Shown: positions 55,584 through 62,417, counted from the first letter of the stretch. The stretch is 64,000 nt of DNA from Thiogranum sp. (GCA_030148805.1 JASBSS010000007.1:1-64000); one strand, 5' to 3'. Program-made: numbers and translations. The notes: generated by a model not told the origin, from the sequence alone.

Positions 55584-55656
55584 GCCTAACGACCAAGCTC
55601 ACCGGCGGCAATATAGCCCAGCGGAATTGCCGTCCGGTTCAGCGCCGTGTTAGGGC
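55584..55656 (-). other. attC recombination site (73 bp)
   Basis: On the minus strand R'' GCCCTAAC (55656-55649) includes the endonuclease stop codon and R' GTTAGGC ends at 55584. Between them, CCGGACGGCAATT and AATATTGCCGCCGG-type arms form a long hairpin. It ends the restriction-modification cassette. Confidence 0.85.
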
Positions 55657-56603
55657 GCATTGTAAGGGCCAAGAAATCGCTCGCCATTAAAATGAATAAG
55701 GTGCGATGGGGCATCGGCTACCCAGACTTCGGTTTCCCATGCGATATCACCTAGGTATCGCCCCATGACGGCCCGATTAGGGAAGGCCGTGACATAGACC
55801 AGCCCGGCGGCCGACCCGCCAAACAGCGCTGCTAACTCGGCGTGGCGCTTGCCATCGACCGGGCCGTGACTGGTGACGGACTCGACCAACAGCAGCCAGT
55901 TTTTCGCAGTGAAGTGCAGCACCACGTCAGGCATCTTGCCGTGTGAATCCACATCTACGCCCAGACCAGCGAGCAAGGGCGCATCGAAGTAACCCCACTT
56001 GCCGCCCGTGTCTCCGGCATATACCAGTACGCTGCCGGGCGCGAAGCGCGGGGCAAAGTCCTCGATGATGGCCCGGATCAGCTCGCTATGCTCGCCGGGG
56101 CTGAGTGTGATTTCCTTGCCTGGCGCAATTTCGACCGGGATACGGTTCTGCTCGCGCTCCTTGGCGTAGCGGGCAACCAGCGTTTCCCGCTCGGCCAGAT
56201 AGGCGGTCAGGCTGTCATGCCATGCCGGTGTGCCGAAGGTGCGCAGCAGGGTCAGCGCGGCCGGCTCAATCTGATAGACGGCCTTCGGGCTGTTCACTGG
56301 CCGGTCGGGCTTGTCCGGGTTGTAAAGGGCGATGCCAGCATCGCAGAACTGGTGCATGGTCTGACGGCGGAACGTCTCGCGGGTGTTCGGTGCGTACTCC
56401 TTGCCGTAGTGCTCACGCGCCCAATCCATGATGGGCGTGATGCCCACAAGCGGATTTTCCGCGTCGGGCCACGCCGTGCCCGGCGTGAGGTTCAGCAGGG
56501 CCAGCAGCGAAAGCGCGGAACGCTCGTTTTGCTGCGCCCTCGGCAGGCCCAGGGCAATGATGATCCGGCGCGCGGCCTCGATGTAGTCGTTCTTGTCGTT
56601 CAT
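55650..56603 (-). CDS. BsuBI/PstI-type type II restriction endonuclease
   Basis: 317 residues from ATG 56603 (MNDKNDYIEAARRIIIALGL). The N-terminal winged-helix region (ALSLLALLNLTPGTAW, GITPIMDWAREHYGKEYAPN, TRETFRRQTMHQFCDAGI) and the C-terminal catalytic region (SVLVYAGDTGGKWGYFDAPL, MPDVVLHFTAKNWLLLVESV) are characteristic of the family. The latter carries the PD...E-K-type active site. PstI and BsuBI cut CTGCAG, but the specificity here cannot be read from sequence. The start overlaps the methylase stop as ATGA, so the nuclease is made only after the protective enzyme. Confidence 0.88.
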   Translation of the reverse strand: MNDKNDYIEAARRIIIALGLPRAQQNERSALSLLALLNLTPGTAWPDAENPLVGITPIMDWAREHYGKEYAPNTRETFRRQTMHQFCDAGIALYNPDKPDRPVNSPKAVYQIEPAALTLLRTFGTPAWHDSLTAYLAERETLVARYAKEREQNRIPVEIAPGKEITLSPGEHSELIRAIIEDFAPRFAPGSVLVYAGDTGGKWGYFDAPLLAGLGVDVDSHGKMPDVVLHFTAKNWLLLVESVTSHGPVDGKRHAELAALFGGSAAGLVYVTAFPNRAVMGRYLGDIAWETEVWVADAPSHLIHFNGERFLGPYNAP

Positions 56604-58057
56604 TCGGTCAGGGTTCCTAGCTTGGCGTCGATCTGTTCTTGCGTGAACGTTCCTTGCTGTATGGCCCACTCGCCAAGCTCGATCAGCGTTTCACGGCTCG
56701 GGTACTTCATCAGCTTGAGGTCGGTCGCATTGACCTGGGTATGGCCGTTGAATCGCCTGAAATTCTCATCAACCGCGGTCGTGTTCAGGAACACGGCCAG
56801 CCCGCGGGCCAGCGCCTCGGGCAATCCGCGCTTGTTCTCATGGAATAGGTTCAAGTGGTTCTCAAAGCCCAACACGGGCGCGTCACCGAAGGCGCTCGGA
56901 TCGACCACGCTCGCCACGATCCGGCGCTTTTCTTCCTTGGACGAGAAGCGGCGAACGACACAGTAGAAGCCGTTCGGGTACAGCCATTTTTCGGTGTCGG
57001 CGTTGTGCTTGATGGCGTTCGGCTTCTTCATGCCCTCAATGGGCCATGTGGTGCTGGTGCTGCTGAAATGGCCCGGATACAGCAAGGGAACGGTGCCCTC
57101 CTCTGGCATGTCGCGCAGGTGCTCTTTCAACCTGAAATCGACTACCGGGCCGGTGGATATCTTGATGCCTAGGTCGGCCAGCGTGCAGCGGATTGCCTCG
57201 GATAGCTCGATAGCGTTCTTCTCCGGGGACGTGGGGACGTGAATGAACCGCTCCGAGTCATCGGGGAACACGATCCGATCGAACGGATGTTTGTGCGTCA
57301 CAAGGTCGGCGAAGGTGTCGTCGGTCGATGTCGTCACTGTCACCGGCCCCTGCTGGCCGTCCCGCTCCAAGCGAATGATGATGTTCTCTTGCAGAACCTT
57401 ATCGTCCTTGAATGCCTTGCTGCGCGACTCGAACAGGTGCATGTGGTGGACGGCAGCTCGCTCAAGGATGAATTCGCGGAACGGCCGGTAATACGGCCCG
57501 TTGCAAAAGCTGCGCGGGATGATGGCGACGATCTGCCCACCCGGCGCGGCCTGGGCGACGGCCAGCGCGATGAAGGCGCTATACAGGTTCACCGTCTCGA
57601 TGCCGACGCGGCGCAGGGCCAGCCGGTGCGTGGAATTGCTGTTGATCTTTTTGTAGGGTGGATTAAGAATTGCGTGCGAATAACGCTCAATAGGCGGAGA
57701 GAAGAGATTGCCTTCTAATGTTTCGACCGCTGCAAGAATAAAATCTTCTTGCCGAATATTGGCTACGAAATCACCCTTATGATTGTACCGCTCTAAAGTG
57801 GACACCAAATGGTCCATCAAGGCGGCGTCAAGCTCGAAGGCATCCACAGTAACTCGGCTGAAACAGAATCCACCACTTCTCCACCGATCCAGAAAAGCCG
57901 CCGACAGCGAACCTATCCCTGCCCCTGCGTCCAGCAGGCGGCAATCACCTGCACCGTCAGGGAATAGACTTGCCATGAATGCAGCCGTCCTTTCAGGCGT
58001 GAGAAACTGACCGAACTGCGACTTTTTTGTGGCCTCAGTACTCTTTGACAAGGACAT
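56600..58057 (-). CDS. N6-adenine DNA methyltransferase of the PstI/Eco57I type
   Basis: 485 residues from ATG 58057 (MSLSKSTEATKKSQFGQFLT). Gamma-class order: QFGQFLTPERTAAFMASLF, SAM motif I LLDAGAGIGSLSAAFL, catalytic NPPY in HAILNPPYKKI, then a target-recognition region (PLLYPGHFSSTSTTWPIEGM). It should methylate adenine in the site cut by the partner endonuclease. A TTG nine codons upstream (58084) is in frame. It is the first gene of the cassette that starts at the attC near 58105. Confidence 0.9.
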   Translation of the reverse strand: MSLSKSTEATKKSQFGQFLTPERTAAFMASLFPDGAGDCRLLDAGAGIGSLSAAFLDRWRSGGFCFSRVTVDAFELDAALMDHLVSTLERYNHKGDFVANIRQEDFILAAVETLEGNLFSPPIERYSHAILNPPYKKINSNSTHRLALRRVGIETVNLYSAFIALAVAQAAPGGQIVAIIPRSFCNGPYYRPFREFILERAAVHHMHLFESRSKAFKDDKVLQENIIIRLERDGQQGPVTVTTSTDDTFADLVTHKHPFDRIVFPDDSERFIHVPTSPEKNAIELSEAIRCTLADLGIKISTGPVVDFRLKEHLRDMPEEGTVPLLYPGHFSSTSTTWPIEGMKKPNAIKHNADTEKWLYPNGFYCVVRRFSSKEEKRRIVASVVDPSAFGDAPVLGFENHLNLFHENKRGLPEALARGLAVFLNTTAVDENFRRFNGHTQVNATDLKLMKYPSRETLIELGEWAIQQGTFTQEQIDAKLGTLTE

Positions 58058-58104
58058 TCTTTTCTGTTCAACCGCTGATAACAATTCGGCGTCTCCTTCT
58101 TCGC

Positions 58105-58169: not shown

Positions 58170-58550
58170 CTATTGCCCGCCACAAGGGAAAGCCTTGACT
58201 AACGCCAAGAAGATTTCGGTGCGTGCTGTCTGGTGTAAAGATTCTGGATTGCTGCTAAGCCATTTGACAACGATGCGAATAGCTTGATCGTTAGAGATGC
58301 CTGACGGAGGAACGCATAGGAGTTTCTTTCCATCCTTCTCTGGCGGGAATAGCCCAATCATGTCGGTGACACCAGAAACATAACCCAAGCAGAACAAGGC
58401 AGCAATGGTTTCATCTGGGGAGATGTCTTTGCCTTGCTGTTGCCGTATCACGGCTGAGCAACCTTGAAGGATTTGCTCACCATCGGGTGACGCATTGGCC
58501 ACTGAAACCACAACGACAAACAATATGATGCTGGCCATGAAACTTCTCAT
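58170..58550 (-). CDS. Rap1a/Tai-like exported protein, cassette-borne
   Basis: 126 residues from ATG 58550 (MRSFMASIILFVVVVSVANA), with a signal peptide and a GGAGAA ribosome-binding site. The mature part (GEQILQGCSAVIRQQQGKDI, ETIAALFCLGYVSGVTDMIG, LLCVPPSGISNDQAIRIVVK) has the spaced Cys and helices of Rap1a-family immunity proteins, known from type VI secretion effector-immunity pairs. Related exported proteins also occur without an effector. No effector is adjacent, so immunity is possible but unproven. Confidence 0.75.
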   Translation of the reverse strand: MRSFMASIILFVVVVSVANASPDGEQILQGCSAVIRQQQGKDISPDETIAALFCLGYVSGVTDMIGLFPPEKDGKKLLCVPPSGISNDQAIRIVVKWLSSNPESLHQTARTEIFLALVKAFPCGGQ

Positions 58551-58567
58551 TGTTCTTCTCCTATGGA

Positions 58568-58574
58568 ATCCAAC
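58568..58574 (-). other. 5' boundary (R' core) of the first cassette
   Basis: GTTGGAT on the minus strand fits GTTRRRY and is the exact complement of this cassette's distal R'' ATCCAAC. It marks the insertion point of the cassette into an upstream attC or attI-like site that is not recognisable. Confidence 0.65.
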
Positions 58575-58645
58575 TACTACTAGCGACCATACGCTCGATA
58601 TTAAAAAACAATCCCATGCCAGATAACCCTCCCCCACAGTCTTGA

Positions 58646-58863: not shown

Positions 58864-60174
58864 TTAGAAGCTGACTTCCACCCCCAGCTGTGCCTCGTTA
58901 CGGGTGTAGTCGTATTCGGCGAAGCTGGACTGGTTGTCGGTGTAGCTATACTGGCCGAAGGCTTCCCAGTTGCGGCGGATCTTGTAGCTGGCGCGCACGG
59001 TGGCGCCGTAGCGGTCTTCGTCGCGGGTCTGGATTTGCAAGGTGGCGCCGTTTTGACGCACGTTGGGGTCGGCGTAGCGGCTGTGGCGGTATTCGCCGCG
59101 CAGGCTCAGGCGCCAGCGCTCGGCCAGGGAGGTGGCGGCTTCGGCGTACAGGGCGTGGCGCATGGGCGAGAGGCTGGAGAACTCGACGCCGTTTTGCAGG
59201 TCGTCGCGGTCGTTCCATTCGTATTCATAGCCGAGCTTGAAGCGGCCTTTCTCACGCCAGGGAAAACTCAACTGGGCGCGCGCGCGTTGGCGCCAGCCGC
59301 TGAGCTGTTCATAGCCCTGACCGCCGTCGATGCGGCTGGCGCGGTAGCGCAACCACAGTTCGCTGCCGTCGCCGAACACGCGCGTGGCCTGGGCGGTGGC
59401 GGTGCCCAGGGTCTCGAAGCGTTCGCCGTCGAGGTAGATCAGATCACCGTGGCCGCCGAGAGCGGTCTTCCAACGTTTCGTGCGCCAGGTGCGCGCCAGC
59501 CCCAGGCGCGCGGCCTGCTGGTTGAAGCGGCTGATGTCGGCGTACTGGCGCAGGTAGGCGCCGCCTTCCAGGCGCAGGCCATTGCGCGCATCCCCGGCGA
59601 GCAGGTAGCGCCCGCCGGCGAGCAGGTCGGCGAAGGTGTCTTGGTTGTCGCTCACGCCCACCAGGTCGGCGTCCGAGGTGAAGGTGACGTTGTCGTCATA
59701 GCCGCCGCTGATGGCCAGCAGGGCGATGCCGCGGGATTGTTTTTCCGGGCGCAGGCGCTGGCGCGCGGCTTCGATCAAGCCTTTCAGCGAATCGGAGGGC
59801 GAGTTCGCCAGCGCCTGGCGGAAGTGTTCGCGGGCGCTGCCGTGGCGGTCGCGCTGCAAATCGATAAGGCCCAGGTTGTAATAGGCCGCGGCGGCCGAGT
59901 TTTTGTCGCGCGTCAGGGCGCTGAACTCGTCGCTGGCGTCGGCGTAGCGGCGCAGGTGGTAGTAGGTCACGCCCAGGTTGTAGGTCAGCGCGGGTGATTT
60001 CAGGCCGGCGCGGCGCGCCAGCAGGTACTGCTCCAGCGCGCCTTCATAGTCGCCGTGGGCGAAGGCGGCGTTGCCGTTGGTGAAGGCCAACTGCTGTTGA
60101 TAGTCTCCTGCCGCCGCGTTTGCCGCAGCCAGCGTTAACCAAGCGGTTGCCAGCAACCACAAGCATCGTTTCAT
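58864..60174 (-). CDS. TPR plus beta-barrel outer-membrane protein
   Basis: 436 residues. Signal peptide (MKRCLWLLATAWLTLAAANA), then three TPR units at about 28-140: GNAAFAHGDYEGALEQYLLA, LTYNLGVTYYHLRRYADASD and AYYNLGLIDLQRDRHGSARE. The remaining 290 residues alternate amphipathic strands (LALLAISGGYDDNVTFTSDA, YLRQYADISRFN, FKLGYEYEWNDRDD) and end in Phe (LGVEVSF), so a C-terminal barrel is very likely. The layout recalls Slam and other TPR-barrel exporters. It is the last gene of the sigma-factor cluster and could export the repeat protein encoded just upstream. That link is inference. Confidence 0.8.
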   Translation of the reverse strand: MKRCLWLLATAWLTLAAANAAAGDYQQQLAFTNGNAAFAHGDYEGALEQYLLARRAGLKSPALTYNLGVTYYHLRRYADASDEFSALTRDKNSAAAAYYNLGLIDLQRDRHGSAREHFRQALANSPSDSLKGLIEAARQRLRPEKQSRGIALLAISGGYDDNVTFTSDADLVGVSDNQDTFADLLAGGRYLLAGDARNGLRLEGGAYLRQYADISRFNQQAARLGLARTWRTKRWKTALGGHGDLIYLDGERFETLGTATAQATRVFGDGSELWLRYRASRIDGGQGYEQLSGWRQRARAQLSFPWREKGRFKLGYEYEWNDRDDLQNGVEFSSLSPMRHALYAEAATSLAERWRLSLRGEYRHSRYADPNVRQNGATLQIQTRDEDRYGATVRASYKIRRNWEAFGQYSYTDNQSSFAEYDYTRNEAQLGVEVSF

Positions 60175-60318
60175 TCGGTGACTCCCCCTGTTCAGGCCCT
60201 ATCATAACGCACAACGACAAACATCGACGGACAGAGGCTGCCCGCCGATGTGGTGTCGTGCCGGAATGTCAGTCGGGAAACAACTTCATGCGACTGTGCA
60301 GATCACCCGGCGCGGTGG

Positions 60319-61095
60319 CTACTGGCCCAGGCCGCCCGACAGCTCGCCGCCGAGGCCGCCGCTGAGGTCGCCCTTCAGGTCCTGCGTCTCGCCGCTGAGG
60401 TCGCCGCGCAGATCGCCCCCGCCGCTCATGTCGCCGCGCAGTTCGTTGATCTCGGATGAGATCTCGCCGCCGCCGCTCATATCGCCGCGCAGATCGTTGA
60501 TCTCCGAAGACACCTCGCCGCCACCGCTCATGTCACCGCGCAGTTCGTTGATCTCGGATGAGATCTCGCCGCCGGCGCCGCCCTCGCCGCCGAGTTCGCC
60601 GCGCAGCTCCTGCGCCTGGCCGGAGACCTCGCCGCCCAGGTCGGCCCCGACGTCGCTGCCCATGTCACTGCCCAGCGATTTGGCTTCGGCGGAGACTTCG
60701 GCGCCCAACTCGCTGCCGGCCTGCACCTGCACGTCGCCGGCCTCCACGCCCACCTCCGAGCTCATACCGGCCTCGGCGCTGACGCTGGCACCGCTGTCGC
60801 CGACAGGCTCCAGGGTGTGTTCCACCCGCTCCTGGGCGCGACTGCGCAGGCGGTTGGCGTTCTCCATTTCGGCCTCGGCGCGGCTGCGCGCCTTGTCCGC
60901 GGCACGCCCCGGCAGTTCGATCACCCGATCGACGGCCTTGGAGACCGGCCCGTCGCCGCTCAGCACGGTCATGGTGACATCGAGGTCGGTGGCGCCGCTG
61001 CCGGTGACATCGGCGCCGGCGGCCAGGGCGTTGCCGCCCCAACCCAGGGCGGCGCTCAGCGCCAGGATGGATACGGTCGTGGTTTTGTTCGTCAT
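60319..61095 (-). CDS. Exported acidic protein with 17-residue tandem repeats
   Basis: 258 residues. Signal peptide (TVSILALSAALGWGGNALAA) is followed by a charged helical part (ELPGRAADKARSRAEAEMEN) and a Gly/Ser/Glu-rich region. The C-terminal third has at least three copies of GGEISSEINELRGDMSG, then shortened copies (GGDLRGDLSG, DLKGDLSGG). There is no recognised domain. It lies 30 bases after the anti-sigma gene with its own AGGAG site (AGGAGT), so it is in the same operon and probably a main output of the sigma factor. Confidence 0.75.
   Translation of the reverse strand: MTNKTTTVSILALSAALGWGGNALAAGADVTGSGATDLDVTMTVLSGDGPVSKAVDRVIELPGRAADKARSRAEAEMENANRLRSRAQERVEHTLEPVGDSGASVSAEAGMSSEVGVEAGDVQVQAGSELGAEVSAEAKSLGSDMGSDVGADLGGEVSGQAQELRGELGGEGGAGGEISSEINELRGDMSGGGEVSSEINDLRGDMSGGGEISSEINELRGDMSGGGDLRGDLSGETQDLKGDLSGGLGGELSGGLGQ
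60415..60573 (-). repeat. 51-bp tandem repeats in the exported acidic protein gene
   Basis: Three near-identical 51-base units encode GGEISSEINELRGDMSG with a few synonymous and two conservative changes (EV for EI, ND for NE). The near-identity implies recent duplication, so copy number may vary between strains. Confidence 0.8.
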
Positions 61096-61125
61096 AAGGT
61101 TTACTCCTAAAAAATACTGTAATTG

Positions 61126-61773
61126 TCAGATCGGATTTTTTGAGGGCAACGCGCCGGTCTGGTCGACATCGATACGCACGGCGAACTGCTTGCGCTGGGC
61201 CCCATGCTCGAGTTGCGCGACCAGCAAGCCCCCTTCCCCGTCGCGGGCCACCAATGGCAGACTCAACTCGTTGCGTCCGCGCTGCAGATCGGTGCGCCAG
61301 GTCAGCTCGTGCTGCCCCGGATAACCGACCACTTCGACCGACGTCGGCAAATGCAAGGTCAATTTCACATCGCGCAGGTCGTGGCCCGACTCGAAAGCCA
61401 GGCGCACGCTGCCGGGCTGCTGCGCCAGCAGTGCCACCGCCTGCACGCTGACCGGCGGCTTGCCGCCCGGTGCCAGCATCCAGCCCAGCACCACGCCCAG
61501 CACCAGGGTCGCGGCCAGCGCCAGCCCGGTCAGCCAAGGCCGCGAGCGGCGCTGCCCGGCGCTGGCCTGGCGCAACACGCGGGCGTGGAAGCCCGGCGAC
61601 GGCGGCACCAGCGGCAGCCCCTGCAACAGCTCGCGCAGGGTGCGATCCTGGCGCAGGGTTTGCGCGCAGTGATCGCAGTGCTCGATGTGCAGCAGCACGG
61701 CGCTGCGCAGCGGTTCGCCCAAGGCGTCGGCCAGCAGCTCGTCGATGTGTGTGTTTACTTGACTACATTCCAT
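61126..61773 (-). CDS. Zinc-finger (HC2) anti-sigma factor
   Basis: 215 residues. The N-terminal ASD/zf-HC2 domain has HIEHCDHCAQ (HxxxCxxC) near residue 30. One transmembrane helix (WLTGLALAATLVLGVVLGWM, about 80-100) separates it from a periplasmic domain (VRLAFESGHDLRDVKLTLHL, ELTWRTDLQRGRNELSLPLV). It should hold the ECF sigma factor inactive until an envelope signal acts on the outer domain. Its start overlaps the sigma-factor gene by 19 bases. Confidence 0.9.
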   Translation of the reverse strand: MECSQVNTHIDELLADALGEPLRSAVLLHIEHCDHCAQTLRQDRTLRELLQGLPLVPPSPGFHARVLRQASAGQRRSRPWLTGLALAATLVLGVVLGWMLAPGGKPPVSVQAVALLAQQPGSVRLAFESGHDLRDVKLTLHLPTSVEVVGYPGQHELTWRTDLQRGRNELSLPLVARDGEGGLLVAQLEHGAQRKQFAVRIDVDQTGALPSKNPI

Positions 61774-62360
61774 TTGCGTTGCCCTCGTGTGTTGACACGC
61801 TGGTGGTCCTGATTCGGTTCCCTTTGCAACAGCGCCTTGAGCTGGGCGCGGGCGCGGTGCAGGCGCGATTTGAGTGTGCCCACCGGGGTTTGCAGCAGGT
61901 CTTCCAGTTCGTTGAGCGCATAGCCCTCGACCATGTGCAGGGCGATGACGCTGCGGTGTTCGACGCTCAATTGCTGCATCGCTTCGAGCAGGCGGGCCTG
62001 GGTCCAGTGCCGCTCCAACGCCGCCGACGGTTCCGGCTCGTGGCTCGGCAAGCGCTCCAGGGGGTCGACGTCGCTGTCCTCGGCGCCGACGGCGTCCTGG
62101 CGCAACGCCAGCGGGTTGCGCGACTGGCTGCGCGCGCGGTCGACGCCCAGGCGATAGAGCACGCGCGTCAGCCAGGGGCGCAGCTGCTCGACGGCCTCGA
62201 GCTCGCGTTGGCGCGGATAAAGTTTCACCAGCAGATCCTGCACCAGGTCCTCGGCGTCCTCACGCGTGCCCGTCATCCGGTACGCGAAACGGTACAGATG
62301 GTCGAGATGCGGGTACATTAGGGCCTCGAAAGCCGAGGCCGAAGTGCGTTTACGGAACAT
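61755..62360 (-). CDS. ECF-family RNA polymerase sigma factor
   Basis: 201 residues. Region 2 (YPHLDHLYRFAYRMTGTRED, AEDLVQDLLVKLY) and region 4 (MQQLSVEHRSVIALHMVEGY, LNELEDLLQTPVGTLKSRLH) are complete. It directs RNA polymerase to a small regulon under control of the membrane anti-sigma factor encoded next. An ECF-type promoter lies 30 bases upstream of its start, consistent with autoregulation. Confidence 0.93.
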   Translation of the reverse strand: MFRKRTSASAFEALMYPHLDHLYRFAYRMTGTREDAEDLVQDLLVKLYPRQRELEAVEQLRPWLTRVLYRLGVDRARSQSRNPLALRQDAVGAEDSDVDPLERLPSHEPEPSAALERHWTQARLLEAMQQLSVEHRSVIALHMVEGYALNELEDLLQTPVGTLKSRLHRARAQLKALLQREPNQDHQRVNTRGQRKWNVVK

Positions 62361-62389
62361 TTGGTATTCTTGGTGGCATTCCTGATAAA

Positions 62390-62417
62390 AACACGACGGT
62401 CAGGGGGAAACGGTTCC
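62390..62417 (-). promoter_or_regulatory. ECF-type promoter of the sigma-factor operon
   Basis: On the minus strand -35 GGAACC (62417-62412), a 16-base spacer and -10 CGTGTT (62395-62390) fit ECF promoter geometry. The -35 box sits in the inverted repeat GGGAA-CCGT-TTCCC. Upstream (62420-62465) is a strikingly AT-rich stretch that could serve as an UP element. Confidence 0.6.

Follow-up and report, generated by a model that had tools for sequence, protein, structure and literature searches.

The DNA analysed here is a 64,000-nucleotide stretch from Thiogranum sp. (GCA_030148805.1 JASBSS010000007.1:1-64000), referred to below as the window. Its minus strand carries a cassette of four genes encoding, in order, an extracytoplasmic function (ECF) sigma factor, a membrane anti-sigma factor, an exported low-complexity protein and an outer-membrane protein made of tetratricopeptide repeats (TPR) and a β-barrel (Table 1). 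An initial annotation made from the sequence had described five contiguous elements, namely an ECF promoter, the sigma gene, an overlapping anti-sigma gene, a repeat-protein gene and a TPR/barrel gene. All of them are present as described, and the sigma and anti-sigma open reading frames (ORFs) overlap by 19 bp. The annotation made no mention of a second promoter copy, P2, which is new to the present analysis.

Table 1. Features of the cassette in the Thiogranum window (ZAS, zinc-associated anti-sigma; TM, transmembrane; TRF, Tandem Repeats Finder)
Feature	Position	Strand	Evidence
P1, ECF promoter GGAACC-N16-CGTGTT, 5' of the sigma gene	62390..62417	-	exact sequence match
ECF sigma factor, 201 aa	61755..62360	-	Sigma70_r2 E 6.9e-12; Sigma70_r4_2 E 4.1e-9; TIGR02937 E 4e-25
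P2, second promoter copy, within the 3'-terminal part of the sigma gene	61794..61821	-	exact match GGAACCGAATCAGGACCACCAGCGTGTC; 48 bp 5' of the anti-sigma ATG
Anti-sigma factor, 215 aa: ZAS domain, one TM segment, periplasmic β-sandwich (residues ~121-205)	61126..61773	-	weak zf-HC2 match
Exported low-complexity protein, 258 aa: Sec-type signal, conserved segment, Gly/Glu/Ser-rich tail	60319..61095	-	
51-bp tandem repeat x3.3 (17 residues) in the tail of the exported protein	60413..60578	-	TRF score 262
Outer-membrane protein, 436 aa: TPR (~31-130), β-barrel (~148-436), terminal Phe	58864..60174	-	TPR_2 E 1.3e-11; BBP2_2 E 6.2e-8

The order sigma, anti-sigma, exported protein, TPR/barrel protein on one strand was found at 41 loci, spread over 39 genomes and about 25 families of Gammaproteobacteria. 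We searched genomes sampled across the class with the barrel protein (41 of 369 matched at E ≤1e-8) and read the loci around the matches, almost all of which showed sigma, anti-sigma, a gap and the barrel on one strand; three further loci came to light when the whole phylum was searched with the anti-sigma profile. In this second search, matches over the full length were confined to Gammaproteobacteria, the remaining ones covering roughly the N-terminal half. One carrier, G038, is a complete genome of the class. The spread is patchy, and 2 of the 17 genomes of the window's own genus carry the cassette. The initial annotation had proposed neighbourhood conservation as a check, and the repeat-protein and barrel genes do stay beside the sigma pair across these loci; the opposite outcome was looked for there and was absent. 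Recurrence of the four-gene order on this scale exceeds chance.

The flanks of the compared loci are unrelated, as none of the families among 294 flanking ORFs is common to more than three loci. Sequence distances of the sigma, anti-sigma and barrel proteins correlate with one another (r 0.51-0.73; 0 of 2000 permutations reached as high), in part reflecting the shared ancestry of the genomes, and the anti-sigma/barrel pair co-varies most strongly of the three pairs tested (r 0.73). Comparison of the window with a same-genus relative indicated purifying selection on all four genes (dN/dS 0.19-0.34; 0.31 for the tail of the exported protein). No barrel homologue was found in a search of plasmids, and searches of PHROGs and Rfam gave no matches. 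ECF sigma factors are abundant and many lack linked targets, and the window's genome holds nine matches to this one, so an ordinary ECF/anti-sigma pair could in principle lie beside unrelated outer-membrane genes. Such a chance neighbourhood is hardly credible here, given the recurrence of the gene order amid unrelated flanks, the correlated divergence and a conserved P2 directly 5' of the last three genes. The idea of a self-contained envelope-response system put forward in the initial annotation therefore stands as far as it describes an autonomous, envelope-located ECF cassette, on the strength of these loci, their flanks, the co-variation and the conserved promoter; two points in it are corrected below, namely the place of the repeat and the identity of the barrel.

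One cassette (L073, G059:C6) has additional genes between those for the exported protein and the barrel; they encode a PAP2 phosphatase (E 2.2e-13) and another exported protein, which has no Pfam match.

Promoters were scanned with the pattern GGAACC-N16-CGTGT, derived from the window's P1, allowing at most one mismatch. P1 was found 5' of the sigma gene at 16 of 41 loci, and a separate scan found it at 17 of 40 loci against a mean of 0.33 in shuffled sequences. P2 is more widespread: it lies 40-54 bp 5' of the anti-sigma start codon at 31 loci, or at 33 of 41 if we count two whose annotated start is probably too early. Its placement relative to the sigma gene varies, with 20 copies inside the gene, 8 across the stop codon and 5 past it, and it occurs in all three reading frames. 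P2 is thus conserved as DNA, since coding constraint does not explain a motif found in every frame and beyond the stop. Over the 146 kb of compared loci, 50 matches lie on the forward strand versus 5 reversed or antisense. Genome-wide, sites with the exact pattern concentrate at the cassette and are elsewhere about as few as those of the reversed pattern, and we consider these other sites to be mostly due to chance. From the analogy of other ECF systems, the sigma factor probably recognises both P1 and P2. As P2 stands directly before the anti-sigma gene, expression of the inhibitor, and with it of the exported and barrel proteins, is probably driven by the sigma factor itself, from within its own coding sequence.

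Two promoter copies outside this arrangement were observed. The first (L192; G280:C6, 717141-717167, minus strand) lies away from the cassette, before a gene for an exported low-complexity repeat protein of 119 residues (IEKPEVEKPE...). The next gene is predicted to encode another exported protein, which looks barrel-like and has no Pfam match; the two may form a second target pair of the same kind. The second (L086/L136; G067:C101:454-480) lies 205 bp upstream of a paralogous TPR-barrel gene that has no recognisable exported-protein gene, which suggests control in trans.

The sigma factor contains regions 2 and 4 only (PF04542 and PF08281, both above cut-off), as is characteristic of the ECF type. 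Its partner has the organisation of a ZAS anti-sigma factor. The motif C3...H29-x3-C33-x2-C36 is invariant across 30 relatives, of which 28 match zf-HC2, and in a set of 38 relatives HxxxCxxC is present in all and a hydrophobic, TM-like segment in 37. The window protein has a single TM segment near residue 83. The closest solved relative of the anti-sigma profile is RsiW (5wuq, E 3.7e-9). In the periplasmic domain, W159, G166 and L172 are invariant, and the domain is modelled as a seven-strand sandwich with moderate confidence (predicted local distance difference test, pLDDT, mostly 66-86). Comparison with the PDB returned many unrelated Ig-like domains with Z <8, matches so generic that no function can be read from this structure. 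The pair thus resembles SigW-RsiW in its ECF sigma factor with regions 2 and 4 and its anti-sigma factor with HxxxCxxC, one TM segment and a periplasmic domain. It differs in that the regulon of the cassette looks almost purely local and in that the second promoter, in the sigma gene, would drive the anti-sigma and output genes without the sigma gene.

The window's exported protein gave no match in Pfam, NCBIfam or PHROGs, and a search with this repeat protein alone found one same-genus relative and a weak N-terminal match. Taken alone, this would have suggested a lineage-specific orphan; a family came to light only on translation of the gaps between anti-sigma and barrel genes. Each inspected gap holds an ORF of about 97-313 residues with a signal peptide. 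Right after the signal peptide comes a conserved stretch, typically DLDVT[MI]xV[MI] followed after 10-20 residues by [IV]x[LI]P, which in the window reads VTMTV...RVIELP at residues 40-62. A fixed form of this motif is found in 34 of 43 family members versus 9 of the 1326 remaining ORFs at these loci, whereas shuffling of the mature N-terminus leaves it in a mean of 0.09 members; these counts are descriptive and do not amount to an independent test, since the pattern was written after the family had been seen. The tails differ from lineage to lineage and are often tandem repeats (DREDSMD, NDSRDDA, EKDDAQD). They contain a median of 43% D/E/K/R, less than 10% large hydrophobic residues and no cysteine in any of the 43 members. 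The 17-residue repeat, which the initial annotation had singled out, occurs only in the window and in a single close relative; conservation in the family lies in the short N-terminus of the mature protein. Retention of this N-terminus next to a tail that each lineage has built anew suggests that the protein is a surface product and that the constraint on it is diversifying or relaxed.

For the fourth gene product, the TPR and BBP2_2 assignments were confirmed, but the protein is not of an unknown type: it is a remote relative of the Slam/DUF560 proteins. Using hhalign, we compared a profile built from 32 relatives with one built from eight PF04575 (SlipAM/DUF560) proteins. The two align over 405 columns covering both TPR and barrel (probability 99.9, E 1.5e-33); the barrel region alone gives E 1.3e-26, and reversed-profile controls are not significant. 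The C-terminal residue is aromatic in 33 of 38 relatives. By these profile matches the protein belongs, as a remote branch, to the superfamily that includes the type 11 secretion system (T11SS) proteins, and it may work like them. Cargo has been verified for only seven T11SS outer-membrane proteins, which all come from a single animal-associated cluster (PMC12282271). Like Slam/SlipAM (PMC8406197, PMC12282271), the cassette protein combines a periplasmic N-terminal TPR part with a C-terminal barrel and is homologous over its full length, and the gene of a Sec-exported protein adjoins that of the barrel, the arrangement typical of T11SS cargo. Unlike known cargo, this neighbour has a conserved N-terminal segment and lacks the eight-stranded C-terminal barrel. 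A further difference is that an ECF sigma/anti-sigma pair belongs to the cassette; the word "sigma" is absent from the main text of both T11SS surveys (PMC8406197, PMC12282271). Since the neighbour has no C-terminal barrel and the window protein falls below the PF04575 threshold, the system has not been filed as a T11SS.

TPR-barrel proteins also serve in exopolysaccharide export, and the barrel could instead export a polysaccharide or small molecule with the exported protein as an accessory. Its profile does match EpsL, an outer-membrane protein associated with XrtB/PEP-CTERM polysaccharide (E values 8e-15 and 3.8e-15, barrel part only), as well as BBP2_2. We consider this improbable: no family of synthases or polymerases is found repeatedly next to the cassette, hhalign aligns PgaA through the TPR part only (barrel against barrel, probability 25%), and the match to SlipAM, which extends over the entire protein, is far stronger.

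Among SlipAM/DUF560 proteins outside the animal-associated cluster, those of L160, L161 and L163 adjoin a second large ORF. The N-terminus of this ORF in L163 (GKAIFVIGDVTLISADGKSV) recalls FecR-type domains, by eye only.

On balance we favour, with a little over even confidence, an autonomous ECF cassette under negative feedback, whose T11SS-like pore displays or secretes the neighbouring protein. In such a cassette, the ZAS domain would hold the sigma factor at the inner membrane until the periplasmic β-sandwich of the anti-sigma factor registers an envelope or secretion signal, possibly envelope stress, and the sigma factor is freed. Free sigma would fire P1, in part of the loci, to make more sigma, and P2, in most loci, to make the anti-sigma factor, the exported protein and the barrel without extra sigma. 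Firing of P2 would thus produce a burst of output that brings its own negative feedback. Sec would take the exported protein out of the cytoplasm. The conserved segment at the N-terminus of this protein is probably a docking tag for the TPR domain or the barrel, and the variable, disordered tail would pass through the barrel to be exposed at the cell surface or shed from it. The layout fits a device that supplies its own pore, product and brake once sigma is free, and the cassette probably builds and monitors a small, so far undescribed protein-export device.

Several observations weigh against this interpretation. With the strict pattern, P1 was not found at 25 of 41 loci. The window's barrel protein has no match to PF04575 at E values up to 1, and only 5 of 32 relatives match it, weakly (best E 6.8e-4). 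AlphaFold2 gave no usable barrel for the window protein that could be set against the 14-stranded barrel of T11SS outer-membrane proteins (mean pLDDT 38, barrel region mostly 20-30). No C-terminal TbpB-like or lipoprotein-C barrel domain of Pfam was found in 20 members of the exported family. Finally, the genes can be found apart: two genomes (G020 and G349) carry the exported protein and barrel with no sigma gene nearby, and one (G029) carries sigma, anti-sigma and exported protein without the barrel, which argues for some role of the exported protein in the absence of this barrel.

This last locus fits another explanation, in which the exported protein is a periplasmic messenger. Its N-terminal segment would bind the anti-sigma β-sandwich or the TPR domain and so report the state of the barrel or outer membrane, somewhat in the way that the tails of misfolded porins feed into the RseA pathway. 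The conserved part of the protein is indeed the mature N-terminus and not the tail, and the best co-varying pair is anti-sigma/barrel. A messenger would have no need of long tandem-repeat tails, however, and the two loci without sigma and anti-sigma are better explained by a structural pair; they argue for the exported protein and barrel as the functional core. We therefore hold the messenger role to be a real but minor possibility. The export and messenger roles could also be combined in a self-monitoring device, a tentative proposal that we regard as unlikely: the Slam/DUF560-like pore would export a disordered, fast-changing surface protein that it recognises by an N-terminal and not a C-terminal segment, and when export stalls this segment would bind the anti-sigma β-sandwich and switch the cassette on.

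Among other known systems, Fec-type cell-surface signalling also has an outer-membrane barrel, an inner-membrane anti-sigma factor and an ECF sigma factor encoded together. The barrel of the cassette is of the TPR/BBP2-SlipAM kind and not a TonB-dependent receptor, a family absent from its domain matches (TPR and BBP2_2), and there is an extra low-complexity exported partner. The type 9 secretion feedback through PorA and PorXY-SigP (PMC7712824) likewise ties an ECF sigma factor to a secretion machine and to a protein that is secreted, and offers a model for the sensing step. It differs in being Bacteroidota machinery with a two-component system, and we identified no homologous parts in the cassette. 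We found no description of the cassette in the open-access papers searched, and its sigma group may already be catalogued in the ECF reclassification. The elements are of known kinds; to our knowledge, what is new is the way they are combined, along with the candidate cargo family and the P2 copy inside the sigma gene. The type 11 superfamily is large, and the cassette provides a divergent branch of it with a conserved candidate cargo family and a switch of its own, both of which can be tested from a piece of DNA carrying four genes.

Within the window, the sequence that separates the exported-protein gene from the barrel gene includes a 14-bp hairpin with a T-containing tail (60221-60251). 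This hairpin could reduce expression of the barrel relative to the exported protein, but terminator-like matches are not commoner here than in shuffled sequence. Just downstream of the cassette, positions 58170-58637 encode another exported protein, small in size, in which a Rap1a immunity-protein domain is recognised (E 3e-17). Positions 55650-58084 hold a BsuBI/PstI-type restriction endonuclease (E 6.4e-60) adjoining an Eco57I-type methylase, the two forming a type II restriction-modification pair.

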